Assembly (NCBI RefSeq): GCF_029542205.1
Contig: NZ_CP113783.1
Span: forward strand, 3,835,001 to 3,899,000
Source of the DNA: Pseudoxanthomonas sp. SE1
Lineage (GTDB): Bacteria; Pseudomonadota; Gammaproteobacteria; Xanthomonadales; Xanthomonadaceae
Direction of reading: 5' to 3'
DNA length: 64,000 nucleotides
Positions 58,587 through 62,272 of the stretch are shown piece by piece. The number at the start of each line of letters is the position of its first letter. Positions within the stretch are counted from its first letter, which is position 1. The translations under genes and the position numbers were made by a program. The notes under the pieces are model-generated. The model had not been told where the DNA came from, did no database searches, and was given only the letters and a program-made list of their open reading frames with translations.

Positions 58587-58712
58587 ATGAAGCCCGCGTA
58601 CGACATCGCCAACACGCTCGACCTGCAGCCATCGCGCTGCGGCCTGCGCGTGCATGCGTATGCCTTCGCTGCCAAGCGCGGCAGCGAATCCGCACGGCGC
58701 CTGGACACCTGA
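58587..58712 (+). CDS. Small ORF, 41 residues, function unknown
   Basis: ATG 58587 to TGA 58710-58712. About 85% of third positions are G or C, as in the real genes of the window, which supports coding. The peptide is Ala/Arg-rich without a membrane segment. There is no clear ribosome site. No run of one amino acid suggests a classical attenuator leader. A 10-bp hairpin and a strong terminator follow directly, so this is a short independent transcript or a leader. Confidence 0.4.
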   Translation: MKPAYDIANTLDLQPSRCGLRVHAYAFAAKRGSESARRLDT

Positions 58713-58754: not shown

Positions 58755-58764
58755 GAGGAACGCG

Positions 58765-58803
58765 AACGCCCTCGGGTCGCCATACCCGGGGGCGTTTTGT
58801 TTT
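58765..58803 (+). terminator. Rho-independent terminator after the small ORF
   Basis: A 13-bp stem (AACGCCCTCGGGT with ACCCGGGGGCGTT) with a 6-base loop, followed by TTGTTTT. It would end a transcript of about 255 bases starting near 58546. Confidence 0.8.
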
Positions 58804-58988
58804 CAGCGTTCGCGGAGGATGCGCATGCATCGAGGTTCGTTTCTTTCCATCACGGAAATCCTTTTCCGCCCTGGGGCATCCGGGTAGCGCGCGTGCGCGT
58901 CCCGAGGCAGGGGCGCGGCTGCGACCGGCGCATGTGCGCTGCGTCGTGATGCCCCGACGCGGGCTGCACGTGGGAAGAACATCAACAA

Positions 58989-59083
58989 GGGCGCATGGCG
59001 CCCGAACGGATTGCCGGTTGGCGACAGCCGGCAATGGGGAGCATCGATCAAACACGCTACAGCGGTACGGGTTTGTATCCCGT
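58989..59083 (+). ncRNA. Structured RNA upstream of the tRNA-like sequences
   Basis: In 95 bases lie GGGCGC-ATG-GCGCCC (58989-59003), an 11-bp stem with a GCGA (GNRA) loop (59010-59035), and a T-arm-like hairpin ACGGG-TTTGTAT-CCCGT (59067-59083) with a 5-bp stem and 7-base loop. The section 58804-58988 before it shows no gene. These are likely parts of one noncoding RNA in front of slipin-rtcB; the ends are unknown. Confidence 0.5.
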
Positions 59084-59143
59084 CCGGTGCGCGCGGCGCT
59101 GCCGTGGCGTATGCCGAAGCGTGGGAGGCGGTGTTCCTCGAGC

Positions 59144-59215
59144 GGACGATAGCTCAGCTTGGGAGAGCAGCGGCGCATGCCGTTGGCCACCGGTTCAAAT
59201 CCGGTTCGTCCACCA
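59144..59215 (+). ncRNA. tRNA-like RNA lacking an anticodon loop
   Basis: A 72-base tRNA fold: acceptor GGACGA/TCGTCC (6 bp), T8, D-stem GCTC/GAGC, T-arm ACCGG-TTCAAAT-CCGGT, discriminator A and encoded CCA. The anticodon arm is only 16 bases: a stem AGCGGC/GCCGTT closed by a GCAT tetraloop. The span between D-stem and T-stem is about three bases too short for a real anticodon loop, so it cannot decode. It resembles tRNA mimics known beside Ro/RtcB genes (YrlA-type) but may be unrelated to them. It directly abuts the next tRNA-like sequence. Confidence 0.7.
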
Positions 59216-59288
59216 CTGGATAGCTCAGATGGTTAGAGCATCGGACTGTTAATCCGACTGTCGCGGGTTCGATTCCCGCTCCAACGCC
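59216..59288 (+). ncRNA. tRNA-Asn(GTT)-like RNA with a broken acceptor stem
   Basis: D-stem GCTC/GAGC, anticodon stem TCGGA/TCCGA with loop CTGTTAA (anticodon GTT), and T-arm GCGGG-TTCGATT-CCCGC are intact. The acceptor stem pairs only over TGGA/TCCA, and no CCA is encoded (CGCC follows). It begins at the base after the CCA of the previous tRNA-like sequence. A functional tRNA-Asn is unlikely. Confidence 0.65.
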
Positions 59289-59655
59289 TGCAAGGGCACA
59301 TGACCTTTCACGTCATGACACCGGGACGCAAGTCCCACCCAGGAAACGCCCCGTGTGGCGCGACGTTCTCCCGCGATGGATTGCAGGAAGACGGCATGTC
59401 GCAGCGAGGATGGTGCCGGCACCGCGCCCTCGACGCGGATGCGCGCGGCCTTTGATGCGATCTGCGGATCGCCTCAGCGCCACGATGCTTCCGCCAACAG
59501 CGCCGGCCGCCCGCACCGTCTCCGTCCAGGGGCGTTTCCACCCTTCTCCGCCATCCGCATGTCGCGGACGGCACGTCATCGTCGCGGGACTCGATCCGCC
59601 GCGACGGTGTTGCAACCCGGATCGAACCACCAGAGCCAACAAGGAGAACAACGCC
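59289..59655 (+). other. 367-base 5' region of slipin with two hairpins
   Basis: CATGAC-N7-GTCATG (59299-59317) and GGGAC-GCAA-GTCCC (59323-59336, a GNRA loop) continue the structured region. The remaining ~300 bases show no convincing gene. The slipin ribosome site (AAGGAG) is at 59641-59646. Confidence 0.55.
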
Positions 59656-60774
59656 ATGTTCTGGACCAAGAGGGTCGTGATCGGTGACGGCGAGCGCGGC
59701 CTGGTGTATCGCAACCGTCGGTTCGAGCAGCTGCTCGTGCCGGGCGTGTACCGCTGGTTCGACCCGATGGGTCGCATCGAGGTACGCACGTTCAACATCG
59801 CTACGCCGGAATACGCCGGCCATGACGTCGACGCGCTGATCGCGCGCCTGGGCGAAGGCCTGGGCGAGGTCTTCGTGCTCGCCGACATCGGCGTGGACCA
59901 GGTCGGCCTGGTGCTGAAGAACGGCAAGCTGGAAGACGTGCTGCCGCCCGGCACGCGGCGCCTGTACTGGATCGGCCTGGTGAAGGTCGAGGTGCAGACG
60001 GTGTCGCTCGCCACGCCGGACGTGGACGTCGCCGTGGCGCGACGCCTGCGCCAGCTGGGCGCGCTGTCGAAGCTGGCGGTGGTGGCCGATGTGCCGGCGG
60101 AGTTCGCCGGCCTGGTGTTCATCGACGGCAAGCTCGAGCGCACGCTCGCCCCGGGCAGCTACGCCTTCTGGAATTTCCAGAAGAACGTGGTCGTGGACAT
60201 CGTGGATCTGCGCGTGCAGACGATCGAAGTGTCGGGCCAGGAGCTGCTGACCCGTGACAAGGTCAGCCTGCGCGTGAACCTGGCCGCCAGCACCCGCGTC
60301 ACCGACGTGGTGGCCGCGCGCACCAAGGTCGCGAAGGTCGGCGACTTCGTCTACCGCGAGCTGCAGTACGGCCTGCGCAAGGCGGTTTCCGCCAAGACGC
60401 TGGACGAACTGCTGGGCGACAAGGCTTCGCTGGATGCCGACATCTTCGCGTACGTGCGCGGCCAGTTGACCGGGCTCGGCGTGGAGGTGCTGGGCGTGGG
60501 CGTGAAGGACGTGATCCTGCCGGGCGAGATGAAGGAGATCCTCAACGGGGTGGTGCAGGCGGAGAAGACGGCGCAAGCCAACGTGATCCGCCGCCGCGAG
60601 GAGGCGAACGCCACGCGTTCCCTGCTCAACACCGCGAAGCTGATCGACGAGTCGCCGGTGCTGATGCGCCTGAAGGAGCTCGAGGCCCTGGAGAAGGTCA
60701 CCGAGAAGATCGACAAGCTCACCGTGTTCGGCGGCCTGGATGGCGTGCTGAAGCAACTGGTGACGTTGAAGTAG
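59656..60774 (+). CDS. Slipin-type SPFH protein
   Basis: A 372-residue protein. The start at 59656 has AAGGAG 9 bases upstream; the frame opens further up in the noncoding part. Both SPFH-like (stomatin) segments are visible, with a C-terminal helical stretch (AEKTAQANVIRRREEANATR). Slipins/stomatins assemble at membranes, though no clear transmembrane helix is seen here. Slipins are recurrent neighbours of RtcB in RNA-repair operons, and rtcB follows here. Role in repair is unknown. Confidence 0.85.
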   Translation: MFWTKRVVIGDGERGLVYRNRRFEQLLVPGVYRWFDPMGRIEVRTFNIATPEYAGHDVDALIARLGEGLGEVFVLADIGVDQVGLVLKNGKLEDVLPPGTRRLYWIGLVKVEVQTVSLATPDVDVAVARRLRQLGALSKLAVVADVPAEFAGLVFIDGKLERTLAPGSYAFWNFQKNVVVDIVDLRVQTIEVSGQELLTRDKVSLRVNLAASTRVTDVVAARTKVAKVGDFVYRELQYGLRKAVSAKTLDELLGDKASLDADIFAYVRGQLTGLGVEVLGVGVKDVILPGEMKEILNGVVQAEKTAQANVIRRREEANATRSLLNTAKLIDESPVLMRLKELEALEKVTEKIDKLTVFGGLDGVLKQLVTLK

Positions 60775-60817
60775 TACGACCCCGCGTGGTGGACGGATCC
60801 GCCGCGCCGGGCTTCAT

Positions 60818-60895
60818 GTAGGAGCGCCCCATGGGCGCGATGCTTTTCATGGAAGAAGCGAAAGCAGGAGCATCGCGCCCATGGGGCGCTCCTAC
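60818..60895. repeat. 78-base REP palindrome between slipin and rtcB
   Basis: A perfect 27-base inverted repeat (GTAGGAGCGCCCC... and ...GGGGCGCTCCTAC) around a 24-base centre. The same length and arms recur at 62182-62259. Family of the RAYT-flanking REPs. Confidence 0.85.
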
Positions 60896-60912
60896 AAGGC
60901 CAAGGACATCAC

Positions 60913-62136
60913 ATGAACATGCAAACACACTTCGAACTGCTGCACGCCGAGGGCAGCGCCACGCCGATCAAGGGCTGGGTGCGCGGCGTGCCCCTGGACC
61001 AGGGCGCCCACGAGCAGCTGCGGAACATCGCGGCGATTCCCTTCGTCGGCCCGTGGGTCGCGGTGATGCCCGACGTGCACCTGGGCAAGGGCGCGACCGT
61101 GGGCTCGGTCATTCCGACGCGCGGTGCCATCATTCCTGCGGCGGTCGGCGTGGACATCGGCTGCGGCATGGCCGCGGTGCGGACCACGCTGCGCGCGAAG
61201 GACCTGCCTGACAACCTGGCGCAACTGCGTTCGAGCATCGAGCGCAGCGTGCCGGTGGGCAACGGCCGCGGCGGTGAGCACTGGAAGCTGCCGGACAGCA
61301 TCCGCACGCGCATCACCCAGTCGGGGCTGGAGCCGCGCCTGGAGGCGATCAAGCAGAAGCACCGCAAGATCCGCACCGACAAGCTGGACCGCCAGATCGG
61401 CACGCTGGGCGGCGGCAACCACTTCATCGAGATCTGCCTGGACGAGGCCGACGCGGTGTGGGTGATGCTGCACAGCGGTTCGCGCGGTACCGGCAACCTG
61501 ATCGGCACGTACTTCATCGAGCGCGCACGCGAGCAGTTGGCGCACCGCGTGCTCGGCTTCCATCTGCCGGACAAGGACCTGGCCTTCTTCATGGAAGGCG
61601 AGTCCCTGTTCGACGACTACGTGGAAGCGGTGTCGTGGGCGCAGGACTACGCGCGCGAGAACCGCGAGGCCATGATGTCGCGCGTGCTGGCCGAGATGCG
61701 TCACCGCCTGCCGAAGTTCCAGTTGGAGAAGATGGCGGTCAACTGCCACCACAACTACGTGCAGAAGGAAACGCATGGCGGCGTGGACCTGCTGGTCACC
61801 CGCAAGGGTGCGGTGAGTGCGCGTGCCGGTGAGCTGGGGATCATCCCCGGCAGCATGGGCGCGAAGAGCTTCATCGTGCGCGGCAAGGGCAACGCGGACA
61901 GCTTCCACAGCTGCAGCCACGGGGCCGGCCGCGTGCTGAGCCGTACCGCCGCGCGCCAGCAGATCACGCTGTCGCAGCACCGCGAGGCCACCGCGCACGT
62001 CGAATGCCGCAAGGACGCCGGCGTGATCGACGAATCGCCGGCGGCCTACAAGGACATCGATGCGGTCATGGCCGCGCAGTCCGACCTGGTGGAGGTGGTC
62101 CACACGCTGCGCCAGGTGGTGTGCATCAAGGGGTGA
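60913..62136 (+). CDS. rtcB: RNA ligase RtcB
   Basis: A 407-residue cytosolic enzyme that joins 2',3'-cyclic-phosphate or 3'-phosphate ends to 5'-OH RNA ends using GTP and Mn2+. The metal ligands and guanylation site line up with E. coli RtcB: C84 (GVDIGCGM), H170 (GGGNHF), H187 (HSGSRG), the CHH at 278-280, and guanylated H336 (SHGAGR). A 78-base REP element separates it from slipin. Its stop lies within an intrinsic terminator. No rtcA or rtcR gene is in the window. Probably repairs tRNA or other RNA cut by toxins or stress. Confidence 0.97.
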   Translation: MNMQTHFELLHAEGSATPIKGWVRGVPLDQGAHEQLRNIAAIPFVGPWVAVMPDVHLGKGATVGSVIPTRGAIIPAAVGVDIGCGMAAVRTTLRAKDLPDNLAQLRSSIERSVPVGNGRGGEHWKLPDSIRTRITQSGLEPRLEAIKQKHRKIRTDKLDRQIGTLGGGNHFIEICLDEADAVWVMLHSGSRGTGNLIGTYFIERAREQLAHRVLGFHLPDKDLAFFMEGESLFDDYVEAVSWAQDYARENREAMMSRVLAEMRHRLPKFQLEKMAVNCHHNYVQKETHGGVDLLVTRKGAVSARAGELGIIPGSMGAKSFIVRGKGNADSFHSCSHGAGRVLSRTAARQQITLSQHREATAHVECRKDAGVIDESPAAYKDIDAVMAAQSDLVEVVHTLRQVVCIKG

Positions 62137-62159
62137 GCTTCGGCTCGCCCCTTTTTTTC
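62129..62159 (+). terminator. Rho-independent terminator overlapping the rtcB stop
   Basis: A 10-bp stem (AGGGGTGAGC with GCTCGCCCCT) with a TTCG loop and TTTTTTT follows; the TGA stop at 62134-62136 is in the stem. Confidence 0.85.
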
Positions 62160-62181
62160 TTGGGCTCACCCTTTCTTTTAT

Positions 62182-62259
62182 GTAGGAGCGCCCTCGGGCG
62201 CGACGCTCTTCCTTGGCCCGCAGCGAGGGCAAGAGCATCGCGCCCGAGGGCGCTCCTAC
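62182..62259. repeat. 78-base REP palindrome after rtcB
   Basis: Inverted arms GTAGGAGCGCCC... and ...GGGCGCTCCTAC of about 29 bases with one mismatch; the same size as the element at 60818-60895. Confidence 0.85.
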
Positions 62260-62272
62260 AACAACCGCAGCG

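Follow-up and report, generated by a model that had tools for sequence, protein, structure and literature searches.

A conserved RNA with two tandem tRNA-like domains upstream of slipin in Pseudoxanthomonas sp. SE1 and its relatives: a possible display of anticodon loops

Bacteria and phages fight over transfer RNAs (tRNAs) by cutting their anticodon loops, and the known tRNA repair enzymes include RlaP, Pnkp-Rnl and RtcB, the last of which joins 2′,3′-cyclic-phosphate (or 3′-phosphate) to 5′-OH ends. A tRNA-like non-coding RNA was reportedly predicted by Burroughs and Aravind in 2016 as the partner of SPFH/Band-7 modules in RNA-repair systems. In Salmonella, the tRNA-like YrlA (a Y RNA) is found with Rsr-RtcBA; its arm order is permuted, with the T arm before the D arm, consistent with the Rfam alignment. 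In that organism, tRNA fragments with cyclic phosphate elicit a response of the rtc operon, and YrlA has been suggested to act as a competitive inhibitor of an anticodon nuclease (PMC7790460). RlaP is predicted to put back nucleotides that have been lost, ahead of ligation (PMC7824862), and in Anabaena the repressor TrcR jointly silences rtcB, a slipin gene and a tRNA operon (PMC10272220). Here, we describe an RNA encoded upstream of slipin (an SPFH/Band-7 protein) and rtcB in Pseudoxanthomonas sp. SE1, within a window that is the whole stretch of 64,000 nucleotides (nt) analysed (NZ_CP113783.1, positions 3,835,001-3,899,000).

At this locus, slipin is preceded by a structured RNA that is conserved and contains two tRNA-like domains in tandem (T1 and T2). 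Its parts and its neighbours are given below in window coordinates, with z the score of the covariation scan and A2 a 22-locus alignment of T2 and the two hairpins that follow it.

58587-58712: putative short peptide gene, 41 codons plus stop, just 5′ of the terminator-like hairpin at 58764
58764-58797, + strand: terminator-like hairpin that belongs to the preceding unit and bounds the conserved RNA region on its upstream side
58870-59552, + strand: conserved structured RNA, about 680 nt, ends approximate (131-locus alignment, covarying helices)
58873-58879 / 58949-58955, + strand: outer helix (covarying pairs, z up to 9.1)
59010-59035, + strand: hairpin with a GCGA (GNRA) tetraloop (sequence; covarying pairs, z up to 25)
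59054-59058 / 59118-59122, + strand: helix around hairpin A (covarying pairs, z up to 22)
59067-59083, + strand: hairpin A, 5-base-pair (bp) stem, 7-nt loop at 59072-59078 (covarying stem)
59143-59214, + strand: T1 (ARAGORN, Rfam, covarying acceptor, D and T arms)
59214-59288, + strand: T2 (ARAGORN, Rfam, A2 alignment)
59299-59317, + strand: detached anticodon stem-loop ASL-B, CATGAC-CTTTCAC-GTCATG
59323-59336, + strand: hairpin with a GCAA (GNRA) tetraloop (covariation)
within 59408-59521, + strand: helices of the 3′ domain, 59408-59414/59515-59521, 59420-59421/59508-59509 and 59438-59439/59490-59491 (covarying pairs)
59656-60774, + strand: slipin, 372 amino acids (aa) (Band_7, E 5.2e-31)
60824-60838: weaker terminator-like site between slipin and rtcB
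60913-62136, + strand: rtcB (RNA ligase), 407 aa (RtcB, E 1.2e-124)
62128-62153, + strand: terminator-like hairpin 3′ of rtcB

The leader was aligned over 131 distinct loci (162 minus 31 exact duplicates) and 789 consensus columns; the sequence counts obtained from them are not independent events, because close relatives remain among the 131, which is itself a lower bound (at least 131 in the set, as lower-scoring loci may be missed). In A2, 96.9% of the cells are paired, versus 28-45% when the partners are slid, and changes on both sides are found in 17 of 28 pairs, versus 2-9 with slid partners, with none of 500 shuffles matching; the fold is therefore not a product of chance. Over the full alignment, a scan by mutual information with average-product correction, run without a tree-based null, yielded 277 column pairs above z 6: 87 in pairing register (more than 75% standard pairs) and 190 out of it. 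Nested covarying pairs are found in the outer helix, the GNRA hairpin, the helix enclosing hairpin A and hairpin A itself; in the acceptor, D and T arms of T1 and the anticodon arm of T2; and, 3′ of T2, in the detached hairpin, the second GNRA hairpin and several helices of the 3′ domain. Since they extend over about 58870-59552, the RNA is taken to span that stretch. The terminator-like hairpin at 58764-58797 is also kept in relatives, as judged from the 131-locus consensus. Stability alone would not reveal the RNA, as the folding energy of 59051-59345 gives a z of only −1.51.

Much of the initial annotation, made from the sequence of the locus by itself, stands. The conservation and covariation of hairpins among relatives, on which it had made its proposal depend, were found in A2 and across the 131 loci; hairpins with GNRA loops, as it had reported, are present (GCGA at 59010-59035, GCAA at 59323-59336), and both covary over the 131 loci; and slipin and then rtcB do follow the RNA on the same strand (+), with E values of 5.2e-31 for Band_7 and 1.2e-124 for RtcB. 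The stem-loop at 59067-59083 that it had called T-arm-like, i.e. hairpin A, proves to be a genuine hairpin with covariation, but the T-loop signature TTCRANY is missing from its loop, TTTGTAT, and its identification as a T arm was dropped.

The two abutting tRNA-like folds already recognized at the outset are confirmed by ARAGORN (59143-59214 and 59214-59288) and by Rfam tRNA scores of 45.0 bits for T1 and 58.9 bits for T2 (gathering score 29). In both, the order is D arm, anticodon arm, T arm. In the window, T1 has a D arm, a T arm, a 6-bp acceptor, an encoded CCA and a short GCAT loop that replaces the 7-nt anticodon loop, and T2 has D and T arms, a 4-bp acceptor without CCA, and an intact 7-nt loop, CTGTTAA (59246-59252). 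The set of features expected of a functional tRNA (7-bp acceptor, CCA, 7-nt loop with U33) is complete in neither. T2, with anticodon GUU, is not needed for decoding, because the genome, which holds 44 further Rfam tRNA matches, has its own normal tRNA-Asn(GUU). Across the 131 loci, CCA is in its slot in T1 in 83, and the T1 anticodon arm, parsed in 79, has a loop of 4 nt in 41, of 5 nt in 15 and of 7 nt in 13; the 4-nt loops comprise at least 17 of GNRA type (GCAA 8, GAAA 5, GCGA 4) and 13 of sequence GCAT. T2 has a 7-nt anticodon loop at 108 of the loci. Thus, T1 often carries a tetraloop in the place of the anticodon loop, and T2 keeps a hypervariable tRNA-like loop. ARAGORN detects abutting tRNA-like pairs 5′ of slipin, with differing ‘anticodons’, in Pseudoxanthomonas, Luteimonas, Lysobacter, Rhodanobacter, Dyella and others. 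At one locus (L265:1087-1301; loci are identified by L numbers) three tandem tRNA-like domains lie 5′ of slipin. A permuted tRNA across the T1/T2 junction, considered on account of a TCCA-CCAC-TGGA hairpin, was rejected: the T1 acceptor is paired within itself, with covariation, and several relatives (e.g. L040, L057) lack the junction pairing.

The locus resembles that of YrlA in Salmonella in having a tRNA-like RNA beside rtcB in an RNA-repair locus, but here there are two domains, both with normal rather than permuted arm order, and slipin replaces Rsr. Indeed, the absence of Rsr and the difference from YrlA, both asserted initially, were borne out by searches of the genome with TROVE (PF05731), which gave no match (1 of 14 control genomes, Deinobacterium, matches), and by an Rfam YrlA score of 25.2 bits, where the gathering score is 69. 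GOLLD, ROOL and OLE are, like the RNA described here, large and highly structured non-coding RNAs, but tRNA is the only Rfam family to reach its cut-off over the window. The closest precedent is the SPFH-associated tRNA-like RNA mentioned above, which likewise lies beside an SPFH/Band-7 gene, with a repair ligase in the locus, as rtcB here; at several other slipin loci no such match was found in the downstream stretch covered. The association of slipin with tRNA-like RNA is therefore probably already known, and the original claim of a new system was too strong, given that the link had reportedly been predicted in 2016. To our knowledge, by contrast, tandem domains in a covarying RNA of about 680 nt, a division of labour between tetraloop and anticodon loop, hypervariable tRNA-like loops, detached anticodon stem-loops and a link to slipin rather than to the ligase have not been described. 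No description of this RNA was found in the literature searched, as far as the accessible parts of the sources go (including PMC7790460, PMC10272220, PMC7824862, PMC7159879 and PMC9650030). Within that literature, the display of anticodons and the slipin-centred unit appear new.

The RNA tracks slipin, not rtcB. A covariance model of the RNA (R1) was run over 395 genomes of the family and over 80 rtcB loci, the best 80 of 587 from an RtcB scan. Among these 80, slipin is present at 43, 40 of which match the model, whereas none of the 37 without slipin (no tblastn match at 1e-8 to either slipin query in the fetched stretch) matches at the level of true loci or has tandem T arms. The three slipin loci that lack such a match are L049, with a 41.7-bit match 383 nt before slipin, L056, where the contig ends, and L111, an Enterobacter locus with a single T arm. 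The best R1 match among the 37 is one of 45.3 bits at L098, which has ordinary tRNAs, and isolated T-arm motifs, none in tandem, lie upstream of rtcB at 6 of the 37. Weaker R1 matches also occur at the slipin-less L102 (30.3 bits) and L112 (21.0 bits), and T-arm motifs upstream of rtcB in slipin-less loci include L096:1342-1880, L102:1418 and L112:1938. All 395 genomes match R1, because it also picks up ordinary tRNAs. Of 129 loci taken from the matches listed in the genome scans, 119 have slipin downstream; at two, the contig stops about 300-350 nt past T2, before slipin could lie; and eight, dropped, are ordinary tRNA genes (tRNA-Phe by ARAGORN, 75.9-81.7 bits), whose score range overlaps that of true loci, since the latter go down to 78.9 bits.

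The same link is seen beyond the family. Relatives of slipin were found in 23 of 398 genomes of the phylum, in 5 of 289 in another class and in 18 of 321 in its own class. With a T-arm motif defined as a 5-bp stem and a TTCRANY loop, 33 of 36 other slipin loci of the phylum with enough upstream sequence have at least one T arm on the slipin strand (L270, L281 and L286 have none), 22 of the 36 have a pair of them at a spacing of 60-85 nt, and no T arm lies on the reverse strand upstream of the 36. This set is 37 loci less L264 (91 nt upstream), and is without L268 (same place as L261), L245, L246 and L248-L250.

In Enterobacteria, the arrangement is simpler. A stretch like the leader and slipin of Enterobacter locus L111 is found in 1,624 of 5,426 complete Escherichia coli genomes at 60-80% identity. 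The order at the E. coli locus is yjbD, leader, slipin, RlaP; in the two E. coli regions opened, a nucleotidyltransferase follows slipin, and the one scanned is RlaP (PF10127). As here, a conserved leader with a T-arm motif precedes a slipin of the same family, but there is a single such motif, RlaP stands in place of rtcB, and the leader carries a sigma-54-like site (TGGCACGCTTCTCGCA in E. coli; a pattern match in L111). The sigma-54-like promoter lies before the slipin leader at L111:2056-2071 and L243:4504-4519. The enterobacterial locus seems to be a reduced version of the arrangement described here, and the promoter suggests control of the enterobacterial leader by RtcR. Such control was rejected for Pseudoxanthomonas sp. 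SE1: its genome has no match to RtcR (PF06956), which does match in the E. coli control, and in the 700 nt before T2 the strict sigma-54 pattern occurs at none of the 131 loci and the relaxed one at 1.

The 7-nt loop of T2 varies strongly and keeps some habits of a tRNA. Among the 108 loops there are 63 distinct sequences and 32 triplets, with A37 retained in 96. Over distinct loops, positions 36 and 38 are linked (mutual information 0.50 versus 0.11 in shuffles, p 0.0002; 0.46 in the genome's real tRNAs), and the loops lie closer to their nearest real loop than column shuffles do (mean 1.37 versus 1.70 mismatches, p 0.0005); over all loci, exact matches to real loops number 14 versus 8.0 (p 0.017). 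Where the T2 sequence flanking the loop is shared between loci, up to six different loops are found. In 15 close relatives, the per-pair difference is 0.373 in the T2 loop, 0.027 and 0.053 in the two strands of its own stem and 0.031 in the T arm, the corresponding figure at 4-fold sites of slipin being 0.126 (14 of the 15); position 37 is invariant in them and positions 33-36 vary. In the rest of the phylum, the T2 loop equals a reference loop, by eye, at 8 of the 22 tandem loci; the reference loops of the hairpin tests given below comprise 41 distinct loops of the genome and a further 7 taken from tRNAs in L078, L080, L082, L098 and L109.

Shortly 3′ of T2, the detached hairpin, with a stem of 5-6 bp and a 7-nt loop, repeats the theme. 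In the window, its loop (CTTTCAC) is that of the genome's own tRNA-Glu(UUC). In Lysobacterales, 80 of 118 parsed 7-nt detached loops equal a real loop of the genome, versus 38 ± 4 in column shuffles, the matches being to tRNAs for Asp (43), Glu (25), Tyr (9), Gly (2) and Lys (1); G34-U35 (the Asp/Asn/Tyr/His class) is found in 65 of the 118, UUC (Glu) in 26 and A37 in 100. The parser chose the wrong hairpin at some loci (e.g. L040, L048, L055, L068, L163), and these rows were kept in the loop tests. Over the 120 nt after T2, 81 of 243 hairpins with 7-nt loops, in 81 of the 131 loci, match a reference loop exactly, compared with 5 of 3,199 elsewhere in the leaders, both strands counted. The test in the rest of the phylum, which is independent of Lysobacterales and used the 33 loci with a T arm, gave 10 of 59 hairpins in the 120 nt after the last T arm, at 9 of the 33 loci and of Asn, Ile, Leu, Tyr, Cys and Ser types, compared with 3 of 659 elsewhere on both strands; a stricter pick of a single hairpin gave 5 of 24, versus 1 of 624 elsewhere and 2 of 1,198 in shuffled zones. 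At L261:1117-1135, a second detached hairpin with a Leu(CAG) loop (gacacc-TTCAGGT-ggtgtt) follows the first, which is of Ile type.

As for the surroundings of rtcB, two long palindromes with TGTAGGAGCGCCC arms, which resemble dispersed REP-type repeats, flank the gene at 60817-60896 and 62181-62260, the former overlapping the terminator-like site at 60824. In some Lysobacterales loci, a conserved protein of about 260 aa, beginning ‘M(R)KDMYKVIVERPRRGG...’, is encoded between slipin and rtcB (L033:2693-3451, L057:2680-3462, L061 near 2640); the L057 copy, the one scanned (about 261 aa), has no clear Pfam or NCBIfam family.

Judged from sequence comparison, the RNA could be held by slipin and serve as a bait for anticodon nucleases or as a sensor of them, a reading that we favour tentatively and at rather less than even confidence. 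The RNA would be made in one transcript with slipin, perhaps also with rtcB, and would be bound by a slipin assembly at the membrane; there, it would present anticodon loops as baits for anticodon-cutting ribonucleases, such as toxins of rivals and phage-triggered tRNases. Cutting of the bait would spare the real tRNAs and/or report the attack, and RtcB might reseal cut bait and tRNAs alike. Loop sequences would turn over because the attacking nucleases differ between lineages, the presenting scaffold being kept; a constant body with changing loops is what such a conflict would leave, and neither a plain scaffold nor a plain leader predicts it. The adjacency of rtcB to slipin here, and of RlaP, of an RNA-repair polymerase family, to slipin in the E. 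coli locus scanned and at L257, also speaks for it, as does the joint silencing by TrcR in Anabaena. In its widest form, which is put forward with a shade more caution, the slipin-bound RNA would be a fast-evolving display of anticodon loops, i.e. a renewable decoy or sensor against anticodon nucleases that bears species-specific copies on a constant tRNA-like scaffold, with RtcB or RlaP as a repair add-on and with RNA plus slipin as the minimal unit across Pseudomonadota. Of the initial suggestion that the RNA serves RtcB as decoy, sensor or substrate, the part on a decoy or sensor is in keeping with the anticodon data; a primary tie to RtcB is not supported, since the RNA follows slipin.

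Several observations weigh against the bait or sensor reading. Per distinct loop, exact matches of T2 to real loops are not significant (8 versus 5.0, p 0.096) and those of the detached hairpin are weak (5 versus 2.2, p 0.044), its distance test being null (p 0.58), in loop shuffles that do not allow for shared descent. Much of the signal of the detached hairpin comes from two common loops, Asp and Glu; U33 is retained in only 57 of the 108 T2 loops; and, in the comparison of close relatives, 19 of the 683 overlapping seven-column windows along the leader (the T2 loop being one of them) are as variable as that loop. Hairpin A was rejected as a further anticodon mimic, as its loops across loci are unlike tRNA anticodon loops (loop test negative). 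Furthermore, at several slipin loci, mainly alphaproteobacterial, the RNA is present with no rtcB match within about 1.5 kilobases (kb) downstream; a ligase might lie further from slipin, as about 1.5 kb was covered. The proteins downstream of slipin, scanned at 10 of 20 listed loci, are RlaP (one, L257), a ketoacyl synthase (one), a signal peptidase (one), aldolases (two) and a STAS protein (one), the remaining four being without a family.

The tight link with slipin and the large conserved fold with GNRA loops would also suit a scaffold RNA, comparable to Y RNAs with Ro/Rsr, that organizes slipin and repair enzymes around broken tRNAs, its loops holding or aligning tRNA halves. A different repair operon is known to have a tRNA-like partner of this kind, YrlA (PMC7790460). 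This explanation is on the doubtful side, because neither hypervariable loops that obey the rules of tRNAs nor copies of entire anticodon loops specific to each species are expected of a scaffold alone. That the RNA acts in cis, as the 5′ leader of the slipin (and rtcB) mRNA in which cutting of a loop alters mRNA stability or translation and so switches on repair, seems unlikely. A terminator scan found no terminator-like site on the + strand between the RNA and slipin, and one lies before the RNA; moreover, with no RtcR gene in the genome and no sigma-54-like site in the 700 nt before T2 in 130 of the 131 loci, another control is needed. The terminator-like site at 60824-60838 implies, however, that rtcB may not share the transcript, and a cleavage switch could make do with a far smaller RNA.

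Attraction of tRNA-modifying enzymes (e.g. for positions 34 or 37), the RNA being either their sponge or modified in order to build its fold, might account for the frequent A37 of T2 and detached loops and for G34-U35 in the latter, but it is quite improbable given the many anticodons on display (the 32 T2 triplets, and Asp, Glu, Tyr, Gly, Lys, Asn, Ile, Leu, Cys and Ser in detached loops), and it leaves the link to repair genes without explanation. Finally, degenerate acceptors, frequent loss of U33 and T2 loops of 4-8 nt are what decaying or ordinary tRNA genes, at the locus by chance, might show; conservation across genera and a constant place before slipin speak against this, and covariation across genera contradicts it, so that it is scarcely credible.

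The display of anticodon loops on an RNA would constitute a line of defence different from repair and, if the loops are baits as we tentatively propose, the tRNAs attacked in a given lineage could be read off from the loops in its genomes. The role of bacterial slipins is poorly known; if true, the proposal would suggest a job for them and explain why slipin accompanies RNA-repair genes.

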